DNA from: Elusimicrobia bacterium CG1_02_37_114
GTDB lineage: Bacteria; Elusimicrobiota; Endomicrobiia; CG1-02-37-114
Length of the DNA: 33,256 nt
Direction: 5' to 3'
Assembly: GCA_001871125.1 (NCBI GenBank)
Contig: MNXB01000021.1
Span: 1 to 33,256, forward strand
Each line of letters opens with the position of its first letter. Within the stretch, counting starts at the first letter, position 1. Shown one piece after another: positions 18,701-28,254 of the stretch. The position numbers and the translations under genes were made by a program. The notes beneath the pieces are model-generated. The model was not told where the DNA came from and made no database searches. It was given only the letters and a program-made list of their open reading frames with translations.

Positions 18701-21170
18701 CAGGCGGTGCAGGCGGGGTTAAATCTTGAGGAACCCCTGCATACTGTTCATTATTTGTAGTTTCATTGCCGACGGCATCTACTGAATGGATAACATAGTA
18801 ATATGAGGTGTTATTGATTAAACCCTTATCCAGAAAATTAGACCCAAGGACATTGTCATAAACTAAATTACCTAAAATCCCTTGATTTGTAGACCTATAA
18901 ATATGTATATGAGAAAAATCTTTATCTGTAGGATTGGTCCAGGAAACCAGAAGTTCACCGGTTTTGCCTGTGGCATTTACTGAAATATCTGTCGGCTGTG
19001 CAGGAGGAGTGCAATTGATAATTATGTTTATGGAGATATTAACGTTTTTCTCTTCATTATTGGATTTGTCCTCTGTCCGGATTGCAAATTTATATGTCCC
19101 GTCAGGTATAATGTCTGAGGACCAGTTATTGACAGGATGTGAGATAACAGCCATAATCTTAGAGTAATTAATCCCCCCCGTCCCGCTGTCCCAATAGACA
19201 TTGTATTTATATACATCCGATGATATGGATGTTTCCCACCCGAGAGTGACTTTAGCATCTTTTGATACATTGTATCTGAAATTTTGAACGGGTTTCGGCG
19301 GTGTTGTATCATAAGGTATCCCCCTGTACTGCCCGTTGTTATCTGGCATTGCCCTTGCCAGATGTTCAGGCTGGACAGCGTCAAAAGGTCTCATTCTATC
19401 GTCACCTGTCCCGTTATGATTGATATCGGTCCAGTATGTAGAACCGTCTGTCGCTACAAAAAACCCTTCTCCCTGTCCATAGAGAGTTGCTTTAGGTAAA
19501 TACACATCTATTATTCCCGCATCAGTTGTGACAGTGAGCGATTGTTCCGACATTGTTCCGGACCAGGAAATAATAAGAGCGCCACTGCCCGGACCGTTGC
19601 GGTCCTCGTAAGTTCCGTCTTTTAATATACCGCCATAACTTTTTGCTCCGCCGTATTCATAATTGTCTTCCTCTTTCCAGAAAGCATTTATGCCTGAATC
19701 ACATATTTTATCCGTAGAGAGGTTTGTTCTCATATCAGTCACTTCACTGCAGAAGAAAGGAGTTAAACTGGGTTTCATAGATAGCGGTGCGGATTCATTA
19801 CCTTCCAAATCCAGTGAAGTAAGAGAATAGTAATAAGACGTAGCATTATTCAGTCCCCTGTCGTATGTTGTGATTCCAAGGACATTGTCATAAACCAGAC
19901 CACCGCGAACTCCGGCGCAGGTGGAACGGTAAATGCGGACGTGGGAGAAATCATTCTCGGGTGGATTAATCCATGAGATAAATAATTCTTCTCCCCTACC
20001 TGTATTGGTTATTGAAATATCTCCTGGCGGTTCAGGCGGAGTGGTATCGGGCGGGGGTAAAATTATAGTTTCAAATTTGAACTGGTAGAGGTGCTGGTCC
20101 CAGGCGGTGCCGTATATTTCTAACTTATTGTCATTGTCACCGTCACCTATGGCTATACCCAGTATGTCGTATTTCTCCAGGGAACCAATTGCAGTTTTTG
20201 TCCAGGAACTTCCTGAAAAAGAGAACTGGTAGAGCGGGTCGTCATAACATGCGGCGTATATTTCTACTTTACCGCTATTGCCGCCGTCACCTATAGCGAT
20301 ACTGCGCATACCACTTCTACCGGAATCAATTTTTGTTTTTGTCCACATACTGTTTATAAATCTGAATTGATAAAGACTTCCCGAATCATCTCCTGCATAG
20401 ACTTCAGAATTAGCATCGTTGTCACCATCCCCCACAACTACCTCATTGATGCTCCCTTCGCCATAACCGACTTCAGTTTTTGTCCATGAATTGCCATTCC
20501 ACTCAAATTTATAGACATAATTATCACTGTTAGAACCATACACTTCCATTTTACCATCGTTATCACCGTCACTCACACATACAGAGCGCATTGAACCGCT
20601 GTAGCCGAAAATAAATCTGCCTCCCGAACCGACATTGGTTTTTGTCCATGAATTGCCATCCCATTTGAATTGATATATATGGTCGTCAAGATTTGCACCA
20701 TATAGCTCAAGTTTCCCATCATTGTCGCCGTCACCAATACTTACTTCACTCATGCCCCATCCACCACAACCGACATCGGTTTTTATCCAGGAACTGCCAT
20801 TCCACTTAAATTGATAGATATGCCCATCGTGACTTGCACCATAGACTTCCTGTTTCCCGTCATTGTCGCCATCGCCCACTGTTACGCTCCACATAACGTT
20901 TCCCATGGAAGTATTTATCCATGCGGTTTCGCTTCGTCTGAACTGATAAAGACCACTGCGGTTTGAAGAATAAATTTCAAAGACTCCGTCATTGTCACCG
21001 TCGCCCACACATAAACCTTCCATCCAGTACTCACCCGTTGCTATCTCAGTTATGTTAAACTCTGCCCATGCTGTAAAAATAAAAAAGATTGGCAACAAGA
21101 GCATAATGGATAGTCTGATTACCAATCTTAAATAGACAAGATAATTTCTTTTCGGCAGCTCGGCTATCAT
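15714..21170 (-). CDS. giant secreted propeller/fibronectin-III protein with FlgD/type IX-like C-terminus
   Basis: 1818 residues. The start is supported by AAAGGAG 5 bases upstream. A long signal peptide (about 1-37, ending AWA) is followed by seven repeats of about 48 residues (38-370) of the pattern GDGDND-x5-YG-x5-YQF-x4-WTKT, an FG-GAP/VCBS-like layout fitting a seven-bladed propeller. Five fibronectin-III-like domains lie near 370-455, 620-720, 720-815, 815-900 and 1312-1415. Two related segments contain LPYRDINQDGIVDG and LPYKDENDDGIVDD. The end (about 1737-1818) has YPNPF, KINIFTLSGKLVK and SSGVYFYLI, the FlgD-Ig/type IX sorting pattern. A surface adhesin or sugar-binding role is inference. 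A c-di-GMP riboswitch precedes it. Confidence 0.85.
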   Translation of the reverse strand: MIAELPKRNYLVYLRLVIRLSIMLLLPIFFIFTAWAEFNITEIATGEYWMEGLCVGDGDNDGVFEIYSSNRSGLYQFRRSETAWINTSMGNVMWSVTVGDGDNDGKQEVYGASHDGHIYQFKWNGSSWIKTDVGCGGWGMSEVSIGDGDNDGKLELYGANLDDHIYQFKWDGNSWTKTNVGSGGRFIFGYSGSMRSVCVSDGDNDGKMEVYGSNSDNYVYKFEWNGNSWTKTEVGYGEGSINEVVVGDGDNDANSEVYAGDDSGSLYQFRFINSMWTKTKIDSGRSGMRSIAIGDGGNSGKVEIYAACYDDPLYQFSFSGSSWTKTAIGSLEKYDILGIAIGDGDNDNKLEIYGTAWDQHLYQFKFETIILPPPDTTPPEPPGDISITNTGRGEELFISWINPPENDFSHVRIYRSTCAGVRGGLVYDNVLGITTYDRGLNNATSYYYSLTSLDLEGNESAPLSMKPSLTPFFCSEVTDMRTNLSTDKICDSGINAFWKEEDNYEYGGAKSYGGILKDGTYEDRNGPGSGALIISWSGTMSEQSLTVTTDAGIIDVYLPKATLYGQGEGFFVATDGSTYWTDINHNGTGDDRMRPFDAVQPEHLARAMPDNNGQYRGIPYDTTPPKPVQNFRYNVSKDAKVTLGWETSISSDVYKYNVYWDSGTGGINYSKIMAVISHPVNNWSSDIIPDGTYKFAIRTEDKSNNEEKNVNISINIIINCTPPAQPTDISVNATGKTGELLVSWTNPTDKDFSHIHIYRSTNQGILGNLVYDNVLGSNFLDKGLINNTSYYYVIHSVDAVGNETTNNEQYAGVPQDLTPPAPPENISAFVISINTVLLTWTSSNSEDIFGYNIYWDNGTGIIDYSKPLASLLHPATVWVSNPLDNGQYHFAVCSQDKYGNEDKIDVETIDINITYLPFSDDKDLPSLEVISPKDTVRYSSSLPLIYGTACDKSSDIKSVGLCIQDLDNGKYWNGKQWVFEKTFVTAEGTDKWLYATPFAEHGYPYRYTFYVRAVDKSDNEFVSKEIRYSVNIENAETKDEWSVNQQNDNIVLTLNNLTPGVTYYRLYYIGYDVVCSDWFGYSEILRPQERNSITSKSPQKNETINIFIKPVFQARPEKEQLIELPTRENPGHIPPVLPPSSYTVITIGEPAVTETEQGISTPTISNTVIDTDTKQVSSQIPVEPSPSSPKLPTMVWKTNGDSANYSEMYPVKVIPEPSRDLRVVTYPTEIIIKKDTEFELRLPYRDINQDGIVDGTDIPETSLIILMYSELSKTWIGGFKTTVNTEENVCTARVSESGIYAIFSPYKILPAPVRNLSANVVNKNCVKLNWIPSASLSEGFYNTYYANGNYYIQQYEIKHRIYWDNGTGVIDYANSPGLVGQLTNTWTSGQLKPGTYKFAVRVIDREGNEEKNTDFVTGTIEASDVPTSSGEKPIPQARVIIKVPRDGKKISGNAVTVIAEPVEISPVTGVVFQYRHAFSNEWINITGRDSKPPYAVYWNVSGLANGQYCLRAVAYDNNNLSDPEPEFITVYIDDVNADIVEDGNPEVDPNKPHRKEEKIDESVKNDEQEVLVADGTGAIIPTGAAKNDRLIISEIKEPEASAGLSYLSVGLSYLSDKLPHIETSLEPAGVYREFEFTSGAKKFSEDITIMLPYKDENDDGIVDDKNIPVDKLKIYYYDETKDKWKEVENPSPGDKNNIKTRNTKSSGSKVITAKVNHFTLFGLFANVPRNNLDNVIVYPNPFVPSDGHEYIRFDNLTEKTKINIFTLSGKLVKSMESTESFCDWHADNDDGQKVSSGVYFYLIVGNGSNTKGKLAIVR

Positions 21171-21191
21171 TGGACTCCTTTAATTTTCGTC

Positions 21192-21286
21192 CGGACTGTC
21201 CCGATTTACTACATCGGGATAAAGTCGGGCGTCCTTTAGATCCGTTGCTTTGCGTCCCCTGATTTCTCAGGGTTTGCCTTTATCGC
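21192..21286 (-). promoter_or_regulatory. cyclic-di-GMP-I (GEMM) riboswitch
   Basis: On the minus strand the core reads AAAGGCAAACC, a five-pair stem CCTGA/TCAGG-like with an A-rich loop, then GGGGACGCAAAGC and ACGGATCTAA. These are the conserved GEMM-I elements (GGCAAACC, GGGACGCAAAGC, CGG-TCTAA) in the right order and spacing. The second helix contains an extra hairpin (TCCCGAT/ATCGGGA, 21199-21219) and closes with GTCCGG. It ends about 25 bases before the start of the giant gene, so control is probably at translation; GGAC-GTCC pairing around AAAGGAG could hide the ribosome site. No clear terminator was seen. The sign of the response is unknown. Confidence 0.8.
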
Positions 21287-21317
21287 ACTTTATTTCAATT
21301 AACAGTAGTAGCGTCCC

Positions 21318-21528: not shown

Positions 21529-21831
21529 TTATTCAGGAGTTACTTTTGATGAGAGCAGTATTGTAAATTTTACTTTCTGTCCATCGCGTAGAGTTATCCA
21601 AGATTTACCTTTGTTAAAGGGAAAGTCCAGTAATATAGTAGATTCGTCAGCATCTGCACTGTTAAATTCATAGAGTTTGTGTGATCTTTCTTTGTGTAAT
21701 ATCTTGAAACTGTAGTAACAATTCGGAAATATTTTTGCAATTGCGTTCCATCTAAAAAGACGCACTTTCCCACTTTCCCAGCCCTTGACAACAGACGAAA
21801 GAGTATTATATAATAAGTGTATCAAGTTCAC
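21529..21831 (-). pseudogene. decayed partial copy of the TPR lipoprotein gene at 27385-28254
   Basis: The minus strand encodes HKLYEFNSADADESTILLDF then PFNKGKSWITLRDGQKVKFT, ending LLSSKVTPE. This matches the C-terminal part of the intact lipoprotein (LHEFNSAD, ESTILLDFPFYKGK, TLRDGQKTRFTI, LLSSKVIPE) at very high identity. A frameshift separates the preceding VTTVSRYYTKKD segment, which is in another frame, and about 40 bp upstream of that is deleted. The stretch between FTI and LLSSKV (roughly 60 residues) is also lost. It therefore cannot make a working protein. It marks the left border of the plus-strand island. Confidence 0.85.
21785..21814 (+). promoter_or_regulatory. sigma-70 type promoter of the plus-strand island
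   Basis: TTGACA (21785-21790), 18-bp spacer, TATAAT (21809-21814), predicted start about 21821. It lies within the outer end of the decayed gene copy and reads into the DUF2321 gene. Confidence 0.8.
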
Positions 21832-21866
21832 CTTGCTATTATTAGGTGAACAGGGAGAGTAATATT

Positions 21867-22355
21867 ATGTCTGATTTTGATACTGCTCAAATTTGTTTGA
21901 ATGGACATATCATATGTTCTGGAATAAAAGTCCATCCTGAAAAAAAACAAAAATATTGTCAGCTTTGCGGATCCGAAACAATTACTAAATGTAATCATTG
22001 TAGTACGGATATCCGTGGTAACTATACTCCTGGACAATATAATCCTACTCCTATGGATAAAATTCCACCACCATACTGTTATAGTTGCGGAAAACCATTT
22101 CCCTGGACAGAATCAAAAATAAATTCTATTAAAGAACTAACTGATGAAATAGAAAGTTTAACTAATGAAGATAAAGAAAGTCTAAAAAATAGTATAGCTG
22201 ATATTATTAGCAACACTCCACGAACCGAATTAGGGGCAAACAGAATCAAAAAATATCTATCTAAAGCAGGGAAAGAAGTTAGTCAAGGATTTAGAGATAT
22301 ACTAGTAGATATAGCAAGTGAAACAGCAAAAAAAATACTTTTCCCAACACAATAA
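21867..22355 (+). CDS. DUF2321-family zinc-ribbon protein
   Basis: 162 residues from the ATG with AGGGAGAG 7 bases upstream; an in-frame GTG at 21846 is less likely. The N-terminus MSDFDTAQICLNGHIICSG, then KYCQLCGSETITKCNHCSTD and PYCYSCGKPFPWTESK, gives three CxxC-type knuckles and the conserved family opening. The C-terminal half is helical with TPRTELGANRIKKYLSKAGK and FRDILVDIASETAKKI. From memory this is the full-length DUF2321 pattern. Function unknown; members occur sporadically, often in mobile or defence-like surroundings. It is the first gene of the island and is followed by the first copy of the conserved spacer repeat. Confidence 0.82.
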   Translation: MSDFDTAQICLNGHIICSGIKVHPEKKQKYCQLCGSETITKCNHCSTDIRGNYTPGQYNPTPMDKIPPPYCYSCGKPFPWTESKINSIKELTDEIESLTNEDKESLKNSIADIISNTPRTELGANRIKKYLSKAGKEVSQGFRDILVDIASETAKKILFPTQ

Positions 22356-22421
22356 ATGTACTCCTGTAAATTTCACTAAATTATACTACGGGACTATCGC
22401 AATATAAGAGAGGTAAAAATG
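22351..22421 (+). repeat. conserved inter-gene spacer repeat, copy 1 (short form)
   Basis: Left arm AATAAATGTACTCCTGTAAA then TTTCACTA, right arm ACGGGACTATCGCAATATAA then GAGAGGTAAAAA. It starts over the stop of the DUF2321 gene and supplies the ribosome binding site of the next gene. TACTCCTGT can pair with ACGGGACTA. Confidence 0.9.
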
Positions 22422-22628
22422 CAACTAAAAACAAAAAAGATTATAGCAAGACAAATCTTGATTTTTATTTCTTCTATTATTATTTGGTCAATAATCCTTG
22501 CTAATATGAAATTATATCCACGAAGACAGCATAACAGTCCTGAAGAATTTTTGTTTATGGTAGTTTTATTCTTTTGTATTATAAATTTAATAATATGGGC
22601 AATAAATACACTAAAACAAAAGGAATAA
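22419..22628 (+). CDS. small two-helix membrane protein, unknown function
   Basis: 69 residues. Two hydrophobic helices (about 11-29 and 44-64) are joined by a polar loop containing PRRQHNSPEEF; the protein has a basic N-terminus and a Lys-rich end. It resembles no family I can name. The start follows AGAGAGG provided by the spacer repeat, and the stop runs into the second copy of that repeat, so the gene is a unit bounded on both sides by the same sequence. Confidence 0.65.
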   Translation: MQLKTKKIIARQILIFISSIIIWSIILANMKLYPRRQHNSPEEFLFMVVLFFCIINLIIWAINTLKQKE

Positions 22629-22727
22629 ATAAATGTACTCCCGTAAATTTCACTACGTAAAATTATACCGACAGTAGGTTCTTTATGAACAACGGGACTA
22701 TCGCAATATAAGAGAGGTAAAAAAATG
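22628..22727 (+). repeat. conserved inter-gene spacer repeat, copy 2 (long form)
   Basis: The left arm differs from copy 1 at one base (CCC for CCT) and the right arm is identical over more than 30 bp. The middle has 27-29 extra bases including a small hairpin GTTC-tttat-GAAC. TACTCCCGT pairs with ACGGGACTA apart from one C-C mismatch. Confidence 0.9.
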
Positions 22728-23050
22728 GACAGAAGGAAAAAAAGCAGATTTATGTTCTTGCTATGTTCTGCTCAATATTATTTGTATATCTTGTAGGTAC
22801 TCTTTTATTATTGGCTGGTATGAATGATGAAGACGTTAAGATTGTTGCAGGTGGACTTGGAAGAATAGCTGTAATAGGTATAACAATATGGTTTTCAAGA
22901 GTCATGGGGTATAGTATACTTAGTGCAGTATTGTGGGGATTAAGCACTTTGATTCCTTATATGTTTTGGATATCTACGTGGGTCTTATTAAAAAAATATT
23001 GTAAATTAGAAAATGTAAAACTAACATTCTTCTTAGGAGACAAACAATAA
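22725..23050 (+). pseudogene. small membrane protein gene with -1 frameshift at an A7 run
   Basis: The spacer repeat supplies AGAGAGG before an ATG at 22725, which reads MDRRKKSRFMFLLC and stops after 23 codons. The rest of the gene is open in the -1 frame from an internal ATG at 22763 (95 residues, MFCSILFVYLVGTLLLLAGM onward, three hydrophobic helices). One more A in the A7 run at 22737-22743 would join them as MDRRKKKQIYVLAMFCSIL. This may be a real frameshift, phase variation, ribosomal slippage or a sequencing error. Translation from 22763 lacks a good ribosome site. Function unknown. Confidence 0.6.
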
Positions 23051-23051
23051 A

Positions 23052-23576
23052 ATGTACCAGTATAAAAGGGAACCTTTAACAAACGACGAAGCAAACAAAT
23101 TAGCAAACTCCTGTAAATCCGGAATAGAAAAACTTGTTATACATACCTTGCTTGATACCGGCTTGCGCGTATCCGAACTGGCAGCCCTAAAAAAAGAAAA
23201 TATCTTGTGGCAAGATAAACGCCTGGTAATCTTTGGTAAAGGCGGGCCGTATGGCAAAAAGACAAAACGCCGGATTGTCCCACTAACAGAACGTGCTTTT
23301 ACACTAATAAGTCATTATTTCAGTCTAGAAGATAAACTCAACTACACAAAACGCGGATTACAAAAACTCGTAAAACGTGTAGCACAACGTTCAGGAATAA
23401 CAAAACCAGTTTCACCCCACGTCCTAAGACACACATTCGCAGTAAACTGTATAAAAAAAGGTATATCAACCAGGTCATTACAACATATCCTTGGCCACGA
23501 CCATTTAACAACAACAGAAATATATTTAAACTTAAGCCCGGAAGACGTCTGCCGGGAGTTTACAAGTAAATGGTAA
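23052..23576 (+). CDS. short tyrosine recombinase (catalytic domain only)
   Basis: 174 residues, about half of a XerC/D-type enzyme: the N-terminal SAM-like core-binding domain is essentially missing. All active-site positions are present: Arg in DTGLRVSE, Lys in VIFGKGG, His and Arg in SPHVLRHT, His in ILGHDH and Tyr in TEIYLNLS. AGGAG lies about 15 bases before the ATG. There is no IntI-specific extra helix, so it is not a classical integron integrase. Its last 35 coding and flanking bases are exactly repeated 272 bp downstream, around the 63-residue gene. A role in inserting cassettes at its own 3' end is inference. Confidence 0.85.
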   Translation: MYQYKREPLTNDEANKLANSCKSGIEKLVIHTLLDTGLRVSELAALKKENILWQDKRLVIFGKGGPYGKKTKRRIVPLTERAFTLISHYFSLEDKLNYTKRGLQKLVKRVAQRSGITKPVSPHVLRHTFAVNCIKKGISTRSLQHILGHDHLTTTEIYLNLSPEDVCREFTSKW

Positions 23577-23578
23577 AA
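23544..23578 (+). repeat. 35-bp direct repeat, left copy (recombinase 3' end)
   Basis: GACGTCTGCCGGGAGTTTAC then AAGTAAATGGTAAAA, covering the last codons (DVCREFTSKW) and stop of the recombinase gene. It contains the small inverted repeat TTTAC-aa-GTAAA (23559-23570), the kind of core a tyrosine recombinase could bind. Confidence 0.95.
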
Positions 23579-23606
23579 AATTAAAAAAGAAAGAGGTAAC
23601 AAAATA

Positions 23607-23798
23607 ATGGTAGAAAAAGAACGTCCAAGTTGTAAAAACTTCTTAGATCCCGAAAAATGTAATGAGTGGATAAGAGAAGCATTTATCTTACAAGACCGTA
23701 AACCTGATGGAACCATGCATGAAATAACTGCAAAAGAACGTCATAAAAGAGAAGGAATTTGCAGTAAATGTAGTAATTTTGTACCAAGAGAAGAATAA
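23607..23798 (+). CDS. 63-residue Cys-containing protein of unknown function
   Basis: Charged small protein with Cys at about 9 and 18 (PSCKNFLDPEKC) and a CSKC pair at 52-55, which could bind one metal ion. AAAGAGG precedes the ATG. I do not recognise the family. The gene fills the 272-bp unit between the two copies of the recombinase 3' end and so looks like a single-gene cassette. Confidence 0.6.
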   Translation: MVEKERPSCKNFLDPEKCNEWIREAFILQDRKPDGTMHEITAKERHKREGICSKCSNFVPREE

Positions 23799-23815
23799 AA
23801 ACATTAGTCCCTGAG

Positions 23816-23850
23816 GACGTCTGCCGGGAGTTTACAAGTAAATGGTAAAA
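23816..23850 (+). repeat. 35-bp direct repeat, right copy
   Basis: Exact copy of the recombinase 3' end. The preceding bases still translate as TLVPEDVCREFTSKW and stop, similar but not identical to the recombinase (NLSPEDVCREFTSKW), as if they came from a related recombinase gene. The next gene's ribosome site (GGAGGAG) follows at once. Confidence 0.95.
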
Positions 23851-23861
23851 GGAGGAGAATT

Positions 23862-24733
23862 ATGCAATTTAAAACAAAACTTTCGGTTTTAATTTTTATA
23901 CTGCTTTTTACTTGTCCCGCATTTTCAAAAAATATTGCAGTAATCCCTTTTCAAAATATAAGCGGCGATAAAGAAAAAAACTGGATAGGCGCAGGATTTG
24001 CAGAAACATTAACTACCAAAATAGGGAAAGTAAAAGAGGTTAATGTACTTGAAAGAGAGAGTCTATCAAAAATATTAGGCGAAATCAAATTCCAGTATTC
24101 AGGTGCTATTGACGAAAAAACTGCAGTTGAATCAGGTAAACTGTATGGTGCCGACGTGCTGGTTTTCGGCTCTTTTCAGGTTATGGAAGATAAATTAAAA
24201 GTTACTGCAAGATTTGTGAATGTTCAAACCAGAAAAATAATTGACACAGCAGAAACGGACGGAAATATTTCAGATATTTTTAAACTTCAAGATGAAATTG
24301 CATTTAGTTTATTAGATAGTTTGAAAATAGTTTTGGGTGAAAAAGATAGGGAAGAGATAAAAGTCAATCCAACCGAAAATCTAACCGCATACCAATGGTT
24401 CAGTAAAGGATATGAGGTATACGATTTAAAACTTTATGATAAAGCAATTGAAGATAAATAAAAGCAATACAAATAAATCCAAAATATGCAGAAGCATACC
24501 ACGGTCGTGGGGCTGCTTATGGTGCGAAAGGATTATATGATGAGGCATTTGAAGATTTCACAAAAGCAATAAAGATAAACTCAAGATATGCAGAAGCATA
24601 CTACGGTCGAGGGATTGCTTATAGTGCGAAAGGATTACCTGAATTATGCATTTCTGATTGGAAAAGAGCCACAGATTTAGGAGATGAAGATGCAAGACGA
24701 TACTTAAAACAATTTTTTAATATCGATTATTAA
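23862..24733 (+). pseudogene. CsgG/TolB-N-like exported protein with TPR repeats, frameshifted
   Basis: A signal peptide (about 1-22) leads to a CsgG-like domain (IAVIPFQNISGD, WIGAGFAETLTTK, VLERESLSKILGE, YGADVLVFGSFQ) and the start of a TPR (YQWFSKGYEVYDLKLYDKAI). The frame stops at 24461 after EDK. Immediately afterwards another frame continues KAIQINPKYAEAYHGRG and KAIKINSRYAEAYYGRG, two near-identical TPR units 102 bp apart, ending at 24733. A small deletion where EDFxKAI is expected explains the break. GGAGGAG fixes the start. The truncated 199-residue product could still fold. Such proteins are periplasmic or outer-membrane associated, function unknown. Confidence 0.75.
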
Positions 24734-24767
24734 AAGAATAAAACCGCTGAAACATTCGTCATAGGGC

Positions 24768-24812
24768 AACTGCGTGCGCCCCATGGATCCGGATTGGCCG
24801 GATTTAGCATTT
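24768..24812. repeat. GC-rich dispersed repeat, diverged
   Basis: GGCAACTGCGTGCGCCCC, then ATCCGGATTGGCCGGATTTA. The framework recurs at 26058-26103 (GGCAAATGTGTGCGTCC, then GTGCCCGGATTTAGCC). Confidence 0.55.
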
Positions 24813-24848
24813 CCGTTGAAATCCACCCCCAAAAATAAATTTTAGGAC

Positions 24849-24877
24849 TTGACAAGTTTTATATATTATGATATATA
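24849..24877 (+). promoter_or_regulatory. sigma-70 type promoter of the leader RNA/NYN gene
   Basis: TTGACA (24849-24854), 17-bp spacer, TATATA (24872-24877). Predicted start about 24884. The sequence around it resembles the promoter of the AbrB/RelE pair. Confidence 0.75.
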
Positions 24878-24883
24878 TAAGTA

Positions 24884-24965
24884 GAGCCAAATGTAAATAG
24901 TGCCCTCAGCAGTAAGTATTCTCATAATCATTGTGAGAATACTGATCCTGAGGGCTTTTTGTTTT
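24884..24965 (+). ncRNA. short leader RNA ending in a strong terminator (attenuator or small RNA)
   Basis: About 18 bases after the predicted start a long hairpin begins: outer arms GCCCTCAG (24902-24909) and CTGAGGGC (24948-24955), inner arms AGTATTCTCA (24915-24924) and TGAGAATACT (24934-24943), followed by TTTTTGTTTT. This is a textbook intrinsic terminator placed between a promoter and the NYN gene, so most transcripts would end as an RNA of about 80 bases. Either it limits expression of the downstream RNase or it is a small RNA in its own right. No antitoxin-like repeats were seen. Confidence 0.7.
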
Positions 24966-24987
24966 ATTAAAGACTAATGGAGGGTAT

Positions 24988-25686
24988 ATGCAACAACAAA
25001 GGGAAAAAGATTTTGAGGCTTTAGGAAATATAAAAACCGCAGTACTAATTGACGGATCTTTTTTTCTAAACCGTTATAGGAGTATATTCCCAAATGGAAA
25101 GAATCATAAACCCGAGGAAGTAGCTAAGAATCTATATACTCTTGCTCATTCACATGTTGCCGGGCAATATTTATATAGAATATTCTATTATGACTGTTTA
25201 CCTCTTGATAAAAAAGTATATAATCCGATATCAAAAAAATTAACAGATTATTCAAAAACAGACATGTATAAATTCAGAATAGAATTTATTGAAAACTTGA
25301 AAAGACAACGGAAAGTAGCCTTAAGATTAGGCTGTCTTAAAGATAAGCCTGGCTTTAATTGGTTTGTTAATAAAGATAAGCTAAAAGAGTTAATAGAGAG
25401 AAGTATTAAAATTGAGGATTTAAAAGAAAACGATATGTGCCGGGACCTTAGACAAAAAGGAGTTGACATTAAAATTGGTTTAGACATTGCCTCATTAGCA
25501 TATAAAAGACTCGTTAATAAAATAATATTGATTTCTGGTGACAGTGATTTTGTACCGGCCGCTAAAGTAGCGAGAAGAGAGGGAATTGACTTTGTGTTGG
25601 ATCCTTTATGGAATCATATAGATAGCTCTTTATTTGAACACATAGACGGTTTAAAATCTATTTGGCCAAAACCCAAACATAAATAA
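24988..25686 (+). CDS. NYN-domain (LabA/DUF88-type) ribonuclease-like protein
   Basis: 232 residues. PIN-like NYN fold with the acidic positions in TAVLIDGSFFLNRY, then LRQKGVDIKIGLDIASLAYK and LISGDSDFVPAAKVARREG. The family-specific stretches YRIFYYDCLPLDKKV, RKVALRLGCL and SSLFEHIDGL are all present, so it is a complete member of a well-conserved family. GGAGGG lies 5 bases before the ATG. NYN proteins are metal-dependent RNases or RNA-binding regulators. It is the only gene between its promoter-terminator leader and the next small ORF. Substrate unknown; a defence or toxin role is speculation. Confidence 0.87.
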   Translation: MQQQREKDFEALGNIKTAVLIDGSFFLNRYRSIFPNGKNHKPEEVAKNLYTLAHSHVAGQYLYRIFYYDCLPLDKKVYNPISKKLTDYSKTDMYKFRIEFIENLKRQRKVALRLGCLKDKPGFNWFVNKDKLKELIERSIKIEDLKENDMCRDLRQKGVDIKIGLDIASLAYKRLVNKIILISGDSDFVPAAKVARREGIDFVLDPLWNHIDSSLFEHIDGLKSIWPKPKHK

Positions 25687-25733
25687 AGACCGTTTATCAT
25701 CATATAATCCCATAGTTATATAACTCAATAATT

Positions 25734-26060
25734 ATGAAACACCTTTTATTAATTTTTCTTTTGCTATTCCCCCCCCTAATCCTAAACGCCGAAAAAGAAC
25801 TATCTGATATACCCGTATACCCGGGGTCAGTACTCAAATCAGAAAATCCTGATGTAGATAGCCAAGATTCTTTAACGGGTAATATCTCGTATTATTATGA
25901 AGTTAAAGCAGACGTTAATAAAGTTTATAAATGGTTCAAAACCTGTGAAATCAAAAACAAATTCACGCATACAACAATTTCTTCCGACGAGACACCCATT
26001 CCCCCTATGAATACAATACTTGGTATTGTATTCATGTGCTTTTTAATCGTATCTGTGTAG
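25734..26060 (+). CDS. small exported protein, C-terminus probably lost
   Basis: 108 codons. Signal peptide MKHLLLIFLLLFPPLILNAE, then a mature start with SDIPVYPGSVLKSE, a pattern I recall from small exported proteins that continue well beyond this length. After about residue 90 the sequence turns into a perfect 13-bp hairpin with a T-run (26007-26035), and the translated end is simply this terminator, so the natural C-terminus appears to be missing. No clear ribosome site precedes the ATG. Function unknown. Confidence 0.45.
   Translation: MKHLLLIFLLLFPPLILNAEKELSDIPVYPGSVLKSENPDVDSQDSLTGNISYYYEVKADVNKVYKWFKTCEIKNKFTHTTISSDETPIPPMNTILGIVFMCFLIVSV
26007..26045 (+). terminator. intrinsic terminator with perfect 13-bp stem
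   Basis: ATGAATACAATAC-ttg-GTATTGTATTCAT followed by GTGCTTTTT. It ends transcription of the exported-protein/NYN unit and lies inside the last codons of the 108-codon frame. Confidence 0.75.
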
Positions 26061-26103
26061 GGCAAATGTGTGCGTCCGGGGAATCGGGGGTGCCCGGATT
26101 TAG
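26058..26103. repeat. GC-rich dispersed repeat, diverged
   Basis: GGCAAATGTGTGCGTCCGGG then GGGGGTGCCCGGATTTAGCC; related to 24768-24812. Confidence 0.55.
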
Positions 26104-26114
26104 CCAAGATGTAC

Positions 26115-26143
26115 TTGACAAATTATTTTTTGTTTTGTTTAAT
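26115..26143 (+). promoter_or_regulatory. possible promoter of the coiled-coil gene
   Basis: TTGACA (26115-26120), 17-bp spacer, TTTAAT (26138-26143), about 40 bp before the start codon. Confidence 0.6.
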
Positions 26144-26184
26144 GTAGATATTCTTGGTAATAATTCACTGAGAGGAATAAAACT

Positions 26185-26550
26185 ATGCCTAAAAAATCTA
26201 AAACAAACAATCAATCTGTAACAAGCAAAGAATTTAATGAAACCAAAAAAGAATTTATTGAAAGATTTGAACAGGTTGACAAAAGATTTGATGAAGTTAA
26301 AGATGTAATATCTAGTATGGCAACGAAAATTATTGATAACATAGAAGATTTAAAAACAATGAAAGAAACAGTGGCAACAAAAGATGACATTCAACGAATA
26401 ATATCCAGTATTGACAGTTTGGGAAGTCAAACTAAAGACCATGAACGTACGGCAGAGATTAATACACATCGTATAAAAGAACTTGAACCCAAAGTAGAAG
26501 ACCACGAAAAACGTATCGGTAAATTAGAATCTCATCTACCACCAGTTTAA
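26185..26550 (+). CDS. coiled-coil protein of unknown function
   Basis: 121 residues, almost entirely predicted helix with heptad spacing: FIERFEQVDKRFDEVKDVIS in the N-terminal half and RIKELEPKVEDHEKRIGKLE near the C-terminus. No signal peptide or membrane segment. AGAGG lies about 9 bases before the ATG. Such short proteins are widespread in candidate-phylum genomes, often near toxin-antitoxin genes, but nothing here shows what it does. It has its own likely promoter and lies between the exported protein and the toxin-antitoxin pair. Confidence 0.65.
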   Translation: MPKKSKTNNQSVTSKEFNETKKEFIERFEQVDKRFDEVKDVISSMATKIIDNIEDLKTMKETVATKDDIQRIISSIDSLGSQTKDHERTAEINTHRIKELEPKVEDHEKRIGKLESHLPPV

Positions 26551-26673
26551 GTCCAGGACTACGCCTTATTCTTACTAGCATAAAAAACCACATACCCATA
26601 TAGACCCTAATTTACTTCACACCGCTACAGAAGTGCAACCCCCGACTCATATAATCCCTAAACCCATCACTGC

Positions 26674-26702
26674 TTGACAAATCTCATAAAATATGATATA
26701 AG
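26674..26702 (+). promoter_or_regulatory. promoter of the AbrB/RelE toxin-antitoxin pair
   Basis: TTGACA (26674-26679), 17-bp spacer, TATAAG (26697-26702), some 40 bp before the antitoxin start. Confidence 0.75.
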
Positions 26703-26706
26703 TATA

Positions 26707-26721
26707 TTAGTAGATTACTAA
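26707..26721. promoter_or_regulatory. palindromic operator TTAGTA-gat-TACTAA
   Basis: A perfect inverted repeat (6-bp arms) at the predicted transcription start, where AbrB-type antitoxins or their toxin complexes usually bind to repress their own operon. Confidence 0.6.
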
Positions 26722-26745
26722 AATCTAAACCAGGGAGACCAGGGT

Positions 26746-27027
26746 ATGGAATTAATAAAAATAACTACAAATGGACAAATTACAGTTCCATCTGAATTCA
26801 GAAAACAGTGTCATTGCAAAACAGGAGATTATCTACAGGTAGAAATATCCGGAAATAGCCTAACATTAAAACCGGCACAAGTCATTGACCCTTCCCAGTC
26901 ATGGTTTTGGACAAAGGAGTGGCAGGAAAAGGAAAAAGAAGCTGACAAAGATATGGAAGAAAACAAATACAAAGAATATAAAGATATGAAGTCAGCTGTA
27001 AAATCATTGAAGAAATTAGTTAAATGA
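26746..27027 (+). CDS. AbrB/SpoVT-type antitoxin
   Basis: 93 residues. The swapped-hairpin DNA-binding domain (1-45) reads ITTNGQITVPSEFRKQ then GDYLQVEISGNSLTLKP. The charged helical tail (50-93), with WFWTKEWQEKEKEAD, is the usual toxin-binding extension of this antitoxin class. GGGAGACC lies upstream and the ATG follows CAGGGT. The stop overlaps the toxin start (ATGA, 27024-27027). It likely represses the operon through the palindrome at 26707-26721. Confidence 0.88.
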   Translation: MELIKITTNGQITVPSEFRKQCHCKTGDYLQVEISGNSLTLKPAQVIDPSQSWFWTKEWQEKEKEADKDMEENKYKEYKDMKSAVKSLKKLVK

Positions 27028-27287
27028 TAATAAGAATACTAAGTTCCTTTGAGAAAGATTTCGCTAAACTACCCAAACATATACAAAACACTACTCTAAA
27101 AAAGTTTGATTATTTAAAAAACAATAGGTTTCACCCTTCTCTAAGAACTAAAAAAGTTCAGTGTTGTCCAGGAATTTGGGAAGGAAGTATATCAATGGAA
27201 TATAGATTTACATATTACATAGATGAACAAGAACGAATACTATATATGAGAAGAATTGGAACGCATAGTATTCTAAGAAATCCTTAA
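27024..27287 (+). CDS. RelE/ParE-superfamily toxin
   Basis: 87 residues. It has the RelE-type build: SSFEKDFAKLPKHIQ at the N-terminus, HPSLRTKKVQ in the middle, then WEGSISMEYRFTYYI and a final RIGTHSIL. These are the positions of the mRNA-cutting surface in YafQ/RelE relatives. Translation is coupled to the antitoxin by a 4-bp overlap. It probably cleaves mRNA at the ribosome; target preference cannot be read. It is the last gene of the plus-strand island. Confidence 0.86.
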   Translation: MIIRILSSFEKDFAKLPKHIQNTTLKKFDYLKNNRFHPSLRTKKVQCCPGIWEGSISMEYRFTYYIDEQERILYMRRIGTHSILRNP

Positions 27288-27384
27288 AAAGATAGTAAAA
27301 CAAATCGATAATTGAGCAAACAATTCTTTTACGCTCACCATACAAACCAAATCCCCCTTTAGTGAATATAAAATTGGCACAAAT

Positions 27385-28254
27385 CTATTCAGGAATTACT
27401 TTGGATGAGAGCAGTTCTGAATGACGTCGTTCGGCAGGTTCTTTTACACTTGCAACTGTAGTGAGTATATAACCTAATTCAGGTGCATAGTATTTGTATT
27501 TATAGGCGCTTGGGAAACTTAGGTTTTCTTCTCTGATTTTCAGACAATTATCAAATTTACCAGCGTGAACTTTAACGGAAACACTGCTGTCAACTATTGT
27601 AAATCTCGTCTTTTGTCCATCGCGTAAAGTTGTCCAGGTTTTACCTTTGTAAAAGGGAAAGTCCAGTAATATAGTGGATTCCTTATCATCCGCACTGTTA
27701 AATTCGTGGAGTTTATAATCTTTCTTTGTGTAATATCTTGAGACTGTAGTAACAATTTTTTCACCCGCATAGTATTTATTGCTTATCAAATATTTCTGTC
27801 CGGAAATCTTTTTGCAGTTGCGTTCAACGCGCATGTTTTTCCCGTAGGATTGCGAATCACCCTCAACCCATAAATTCTCGTCAAAAAGCGGGAAATAGTT
27901 TGGTGAATTAAAAATACCAAGGACTGCTAATTCCTTCCATTTATCTGCAGCGGGGAACCTGTTCAGCAATTCAGAAAATAAATCCTGGCTCTGAGTGTAA
28001 TTTTTTAGTTTTTGCTGGTAGATTCTTCCTGCGCAATACAATGATTCAGGCACATGGACGTTGAGCGGATACCTGTCTGCAATTTCTTTATATATCTTTA
28101 TAGATTCTTCATATCGTCCGTCTTTTTCAAGGTTTTTTGCTCTGTTAAATTTATACTCTACGCCACACCCTGAAAAAACGGTCAATGTTAAAAGGTAAAT
28201 GATAATTAAATGAATGTCAGTTCTGTTTTTTATCGGTTTCATTATTGGTTTCAC
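27385..28254 (-). CDS. TPR lipoprotein of unknown function
   Basis: 289 residues. The lipobox TVFSGCG follows a hydrophobic stretch (Cys about residue 31). Residues about 35-110 form TPR-like helices with RAKNLEKDGRYEESIKIYKE and the BamD/YbgF-like RYPLNVHVPESLYCAGRIYQ. The C-terminal 150 residues are beta-rich (VTTVSRYYTKKD, TILLDFPFYKGK, YAPELGYILTTV) and resemble the generic DUF seen in such lipoproteins. The start is uncertain: GTG at 28254 and ATG at 28242 are four codons apart, and the frame overlaps the VanZ-like gene by 38 bp. A broken duplicate of its 3' part lies at 21529-21831. Confidence 0.75.
   Translation of the reverse strand: MKPIMKPIKNRTDIHLIIIYLLTLTVFSGCGVEYKFNRAKNLEKDGRYEESIKIYKEIADRYPLNVHVPESLYCAGRIYQQKLKNYTQSQDLFSELLNRFPAADKWKELAVLGIFNSPNYFPLFDENLWVEGDSQSYGKNMRVERNCKKISGQKYLISNKYYAGEKIVTTVSRYYTKKDYKLHEFNSADDKESTILLDFPFYKGKTWTTLRDGQKTRFTIVDSSVSVKVHAGKFDNCLKIREENLSFPSAYKYKYYAPELGYILTTVASVKEPAERRHSELLSSKVIPE

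Follow-up and report, generated by a model that had tools for sequence, protein, structure and literature searches.

Genes and repeats at the recombinase locus

The window, that is, the whole stretch of 33,256 nt that was analyzed, contains a gene for a catalytic-domain-only, Xer-like tyrosine recombinase of 174 aa (positions 23052–23576, + strand), denoted rec throughout. The match to PF00589 (7e-30) spans residues 9–163 of the 174, in line with the preliminary description, in which the protein had already been called a recombinase consisting only of the catalytic domain. K, H-x-x-R, H, and Y are invariant across 39 family members, which identifies these proteins as tyrosine recombinases (R-K-H-x-x-R-H-Y).

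The last codons of rec, its stop codon, and the bases behind it form the left copy of a direct repeat. The sequence GACGTCTGCCGGGAGTTTACAAGTAAATGGTAAAA is present without any difference (35/35 bp) at 23544–23578 and again at 23816–23850, a spacing of 272 bp. This is the longest exact repeat within the window, which excludes a chance origin. The extended repeat covers 23532–23578 and 23804–23850 (both on the + strand), with 43 of 47 positions matching. All four mismatches lie inside the first 12 bases (P ~0.003 under a random spread); two of the four differences are synonymous, and one residue is replaced. Before its stop codon, the right copy could encode LVPEDVCREFTSKW, whereas the left copy encodes the end of rec itself, LSPEDVCREFTSKW. 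The right copy has the appearance of a tail from a diverged rec allele. The right-hand flanks of the two copies are mutually unrelated. The repeat includes the small inverted core TTTAC-aa-GTAAA, and neither copy folded better than shuffled sequences. A search of the whole genome, allowing up to three mismatches, yielded no copies of the 35-bp repeat beyond the two. The preliminary description of this arrangement, namely a 35-bp gene-end repeat 272 bp apart that brackets a 63-residue Cys protein, with an inverted core and with codons akin to the end of rec before the right copy, was accurate.

The bracketed ORF of 63 aa (23607–23798, + strand) is an orphan with four Cys residues (C-x8-C ... 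C-x2-C). Its frame is the best by codon usage (+14.6 bits, the remaining five frames being negative), and it is preceded by an RBS-like leader. Relatives of the protein were sought in 341 genomes of the phylum, plasmids, phages, and viral contigs, and none were found. The right repeat copy begins 6 bp past the stop codon of this ORF and is followed by a CsgG/FlgO-like plus TPR gene (23862–24734, + strand; PF03783, 7e-11). Both the junction between rec and the 63-aa ORF and that between the repeated tail and the CsgG gene resemble ordinary gene-gene spacers with an RBS. The CsgG/TPR gene contains a premature stop (24459–24461; stretch 24455–24461) ahead of its TPR repeats, probably the result of a frameshift.

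Upstream of rec, all on the + strand, lie a gene for a DUF2321 zinc-ribbon protein (21867–22355; PF10083, 4e-54; phrog_16447, 2e-47), which is the first cargo gene behind the promoter described below, an orphan ORF of 69 aa (22419–22628), and a hydrophobic orphan ORF of 95 aa (22763–23050), which ends 1 bp before the rec start codon. For the last of these, an ATG upstream in another frame, behind repeat A (22726–22763), suggests a frameshift near the start. The 69-aa ORF is likewise bracketed by imperfect direct repeats, denoted repeat A (22351–22419 and 22628–22723, + strand), which share an exact core of 32 bp. Copy 1 lacks about 36 internal bp; the corresponding extra bp of copy 2 contain a short element that recurs in contig C103 and in two further genomes of the phylum. 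This second repeat pair shows that short duplications tend to arise around small genes in this stretch. A relationship of repeat A with the 35-bp repeat (repeat B) or with the upstream site I was considered and discarded, as there is no significant similarity.

A widespread family of small, mostly plasmid-borne recombinases

The named models and structures nearest to rec are XerA, XerC, and XerD, with all NCBIfam matches below cut-off. The Xer profiles, which describe full-length equivalogs with cut-offs of 220–335 bits, give rec 102–132 bits and are matched only behind profile residue ~95, so that rec does not classify as Xer. It does not classify as an integron integrase either, scoring 70 bits with TIGR02249 against a cut-off of 265, with a match to the catalytic core only.

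Relatives of the same length are present in Elusimicrobiota, Aerophobetes, Armatimonadota, Legionella, and others, where the organism names are the names of draft genome bins. Further relatives reside on complete plasmids of Megaira, Piscirickettsia, and Cardinium, and on three contigs of a viral collection. Among the 341 genomes of the phylum, 13 contain the family (E <= 1e-30), that is, 12 besides the genome of the window. The loci of relatives are designated by L numbers; the plasmid-type copy of L008 shares 85% aa identity with rec.

In the Elusimicrobia and Aerophobetes loci, rec precedes parA. Next come a small or parB-like gene, iterons of 22 or 32 bp, and, where a replication gene would be expected, the gene for a conserved protein of ~410 residues. 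This neighborhood is a plasmid backbone. The parA genes beside rec relatives belong to several distinct types. The rec copy in the window is chromosomal, with neither parA nor rep nearby. Altogether, the rec family is a widespread, mostly plasmid-borne group of catalytic-domain-only, Xer-like recombinases of unusually small size. At L020, an Aerophobetes locus, the family member is followed downstream by further tyrosine recombinase genes, at ~2898 and ~4522.

With the XerC/XerD/XerA systems that resolve multimers at dif, cer, or psi, the family shares the nearest catalytic domain, an imperfect palindrome of ~25–28 bp, and the plasmid context beside parA. The differences are that the N-terminal core-binding domain is missing (174 aa in all members), that the paired sites lie directly upstream of the recombinase's own gene, and that the scores remain below the Xer equivalog cut-offs. 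Simple tyrosine recombinases consist of a core-binding and a catalytic domain (PMC8138268). A literature search on catalytic-only plasmid recombinases and on non-integron cassettes returned nothing relevant. What emerges is a half-sized Xer-like family with its own sites upstream, which plasmids carry among Elusimicrobiota, Aerophobetes-type bacteria, Legionella, and endosymbionts. If rec is active, the core-binding domain would be dispensable for Xer-type recombination.

Palindromic sites upstream of the recombinase gene

In most relatives a palindrome with the approximate consensus TTCGCCTTCCACCTATAAAAGCGAA, denoted site I, is present upstream of rec. It is located at −111 to −118 in Elusimicrobia, whereas in the Legionella/Megaira group its position is about −180 to −215; in the Aerophobetes-type loci GTCGCCTTCTGTGTAAAAGTGCGAC is found at −470 to −1030. 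A second palindrome with the same arms, site II, lies near the start codon or the promoter. A conserved palindromic site of ~25–28 bp beside the gene, as in Xer-type resolution, is therefore present. The site profile (PWM) was trained on 13 of these sequences, the scores of which are not independent; L008, L040, L041, and others lie outside the training set.

Pairwise comparison of the loci revealed a homologous block that is bounded by site I on the left and by the rec stop codon on the right; the DNA beyond either border is unrelated. Of 150 alignments, 88 stop within 6 bp of the rec stop codon, and of the 47 informative alignments extending as far as site I, 42 start within 12 bp of the left edge of the site. 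The DNA sites of the rec family likely lie upstream of the gene.

Other repeats occur at some of these loci. A palindromic repeat of 29–33 bp (GATATCCGTATATATGGATATACGGATAT) is scattered between the genes of the Elusimicrobia plasmids L010, L011, L073, and L077. Repeats of ~46 bp, which we take to be IS21-like, flank some rec modules in Legionella and Megaira (L029, L030, L031, L041); at L041 they are inverted and lie directly outside the module, at −273 to −214 and +524 to +583 relative to rec. Such terminal repeats account for the homology that resumes beside the Legionella/Megaira copies, not for the arrangement in the window.

Variable genes beside the recombinase gene

The plasmids L079 and L074 have 1.3 kb of upstream DNA in common (82%), and their blocks from site I to rec are 87% identical. 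In L074 (G193:C92), two direct copies of site I, at −840 and −117 relative to rec, enclose the genes of a BrnT toxin and a CopG/BrnA antitoxin, whereas L079 has a single site I and the toxin-antitoxin genes are absent there. L009, in which BrnT/BrnA lie to the left of its own site I, is similar to L074 over the left site and the right flank of that site. This is the pattern that recombination between two plasmids at site I would leave.

Genes are also found directly behind the rec stop codon, encoding an ATPase in L011 and an exonuclease in L013; L075 is a further case. Other genes near the module encode AbiEi/AbiEii, Phd-PIN, MNT/HepT, an AbiJ-type protein (PADLOC PDC-S32), a NucC-like nuclease, and an AAA/DUF4143 protein (PDC-S01). 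The Aerophobetes-type plasmids L016 and L018 are 97% identical in their backbones, but only 86% in rec, and the genes on either side of rec differ. Therefore, the L074/L079 pair and the other cargo differences provide a basis for the earlier idea of gene exchange around rec. The proposal that variable single genes accompany this recombinase is borne out insofar as genes or gene pairs adjoin rec in relatives, including behind the stop codon (L011, L013, L075); the accompanying proposal, that the gene end is the attachment site, is not.

The pdif modules flank toxin-antitoxin and resistance genes. The toxin-antitoxin pair of L074, which lies between two Xer-type site copies and is absent in a relative, resembles them; the differences are that rec, not XerC/D, is the recombinase, encoded by the plasmid itself next to the site, and that the site sequence is another one. 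In Acinetobacter plasmids, pdif modules undergo XerC/D-mediated plasmid rearrangement (PMC9947245, PMC11705084). A pdif-like layout, with two flanking sites and an empty relative, was observed in one clear case, L074 versus L079, and is absent at the 63-aa gene of the window. Toxin-antitoxin or candidate defence genes are swapped beside rec, and if rec is active, this would help to explain how small plasmids gain such genes one at a time.

A proposed island in a lipoprotein gene

In the window, a PWM match to site I of the rec family (ATTGCGTTCCATCTAAAAAGACGCA; 21740–21764, + strand) is located 1.3 kb upstream of rec and deviates from the consensus. It is followed by a promoter, TTGACA-18-TATAAT (21785–21814, + strand), homologous to the promoter before rec in L008, and by the palindrome GTTCACCTTGCTATTATTAGGTGAAC (21826–21851, + strand), which, by analogy with the relatives, would take the place of site II. 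Site I together with the promoter aligns to the upstream region of L008 with an E value of 1e-6. Three cargo genes, those for the DUF2321, 69-aa, and 95-aa proteins, lie between the promoter and palindrome and rec. A second candidate site I in the same genome (C103), which adjoins a tRNA gene, was rejected, since chance alone would yield roughly one match of this kind.

To the left of the site I match lies a displaced, decayed 3' fragment of a TPR-lipoprotein gene, denoted X (21530–21748, − strand). The homology of this fragment to X ends inside site I, in the letters TTGCGTTC of its left arm. The same letters are found in X at 27818–27825, the proposed right junction; the intact gene extends from 27385 to 28254 (− strand). 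In the relatives, radC and vanZ are followed by a single X gene. By our own rough estimate, a break point within site I would be a 1% event by chance. The two junctions and the gene order in relatives delimit a proposed chromosomal island of ~6.1 kb (21749–27825), with rec as well as NYN, coiled-coil, and MazE/ParE-like genes. Probably, this island entered X at site I and thereby restored the 3' end of the gene. Because the site I match deviates from the consensus and the letters common to both junctions lie in the left arm and not at the center of the palindrome, we infer the integration step; a crossover at site I in the window may have occurred.

Other islands are known that occupy the 3' end of a protein-coding gene, for example e14 in icd. 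Another one is SGI1 in trmE (PMC8409611). As in these islands, the gene, here X, is intact at one border, and a displaced 3' fragment marks the other. The island in the window differs in its small size, in having a catalytic-only recombinase, and in that its junction was deduced rather than read from an empty site.

Origin of the repeat pair

The left parts of the two repeat copies diverged, the 35 bp are identical, and the right flanks are unrelated; therefore, we read the bracket as a mosaic of two alleles. In the explanation that we favor, to which as a whole we assign a probability of about 0.58, a plasmid-type Xer-like module resides in an island at site I, and the bracket is a one-off remnant of an encounter between rec and a second allele, rec*. 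Under this explanation, rec would be a stand-alone catalytic-domain Xer-type recombinase in a module of the order site I, promoter/site II, optional cargo, rec. On plasmids, it would most likely resolve multimers; incidentally, it would also allow cointegration and let toxin-antitoxin and defence genes be captured at site I. In the window, the module would be part of the ~6.1-kb island in X at site I, presumably integrated by rec. Two alleles of the module would have existed, one with rec followed by the 63-aa gene and the other with rec* followed by the CsgG-TPR gene; the two may have recombined via their common gene end or have stood in tandem, and rec* would then have been lost except for its last 47 bp, leaving the 35-bp bracket. 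Against this explanation, a donor rec* allele was found nowhere in the searches, and rec in the window has neither parA nor rep close by.

A plain local duplication of the gene end, by slippage or illegitimate recombination, with a small ORF later inserted or born between the copies, would dispense with a second allele. Such an origin would fit the observations that the repeat was a one-off in all searches and that repeat A, another short duplication, brackets the neighboring 69-aa ORF. We nevertheless regard it as unlikely, because the four differences, two of them synonymous, are confined to the first 12 bp, so that the right copy has the look of a diverged allele (the GTCCCTGAG variant) and not of a fresh copy.

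The preliminary description had proposed that the recombinase uses its own gene end as the attachment site for single-gene cassettes. In this model, circular cassettes bearing a rec 3' end recombine with the gene end and leave direct repeats. An exact 35-bp core with a diverged left part and unrelated right flanks is reminiscent of attL/attR, the cargo directly behind the stop codon varies in relatives, and a single-gene insertion with a 47-bp tail 6 bp past the ORF stop is what a cassette, too, would be expected to look like. Against the model, none of the 43 rec relatives (44 loci) has a second 47-bp tail (best 28/47, versus 43/47 in the window), and in L011, L013, and L075 no tail copy follows the genes that were inserted past the stop codon; an apparent tail repeat in L013 turned out to be a duplicated parA leader. 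A 30-bp core was absent from the 335 other genomes of the phylum with up to three mismatches allowed, and had no exact match in the viral collection. The last 12 codons of rec ranked first of 163 windows in raw synonymous conservation, a signal that vanished after correction for codon degeneracy, when they ranked 19, 32, 80, and 143 of 162 (in all loci and in the Elusimicrobia, Aerophobetes, and Legionella groups, respectively) and were not unusually conserved. The hallmarks of a cassette system, gene-end copies at cassette boundaries and nucleotide conservation of the gene end, are thus missing in the related loci, and the conserved palindromic sites lie upstream instead. Because second tails, tails behind inserted genes, corrected conservation, and the core elsewhere are all lacking, the cassette model as stated is unsupported, and we consider it improbable. 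In addition, a one-off origin of the repeat is favored over one dedicated attachment sequence because repeat A likewise brackets a neighboring small ORF. In short, the cargo varies around rec, but the gene's own end is probably not the attachment site. Two outcomes had been named in advance as speaking against the cassette proposal: the repeat is indeed absent in relatives, as the first of these foresaw, whereas the second, invariable gene content behind the stop codon, did not materialize.

The distinction drawn earlier between this locus and integrons holds: repeats A and B are mutually unrelated, show no relationship with site I, and fold no better than shuffled sequences, and the IntI match is below cut-off. 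A tyrosine recombinase with variable gene cargo alongside is common to both systems; rec differs in matching IntI in the catalytic core only, in the lack of attC-like repeats, and in that cargo also lies upstream, between the promoter and rec. A broader role for the module is improbable; in several phyla, it would serve plasmids and islands as a portable device for the capture of single toxin-antitoxin and defence genes, with cargo at site I and behind the gene and with the 3' end as a second exchange point in this lineage.

Finally, an assembly chimera is very unlikely. It would involve two strains with a common 35-bp rec end, whose rec-63aa and rec*-CsgG paths were fused during assembly at an identical stretch of roughly k-mer length. 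Such an error would fit the draft state of the genome (130 contigs) and the length of the identical block, which is close to that of k-mers in common use, but some molecule must still have the 63-aa gene followed by a rec tail, and the reading frames and RBS are intact. Under the favored explanation, a remnant of rec and rec*, the exact repeat itself is probably a scar, and the surrounding system matters more.

Further features of the window

Neither repeat A nor repeat B matched a known RNA. The only RNA match in the window was a c-di-GMP-I-GGC riboswitch at 21150–21287 (− strand; 68 bits, gathering threshold 59), located in front of the gene for a repeat-containing protein of 1818 aa. The part of the window with the coiled-coil ORF (26056–26545) matches contigs C103 and C107 of the same genome with 78–96% DNA identity and represents an interspersed element.
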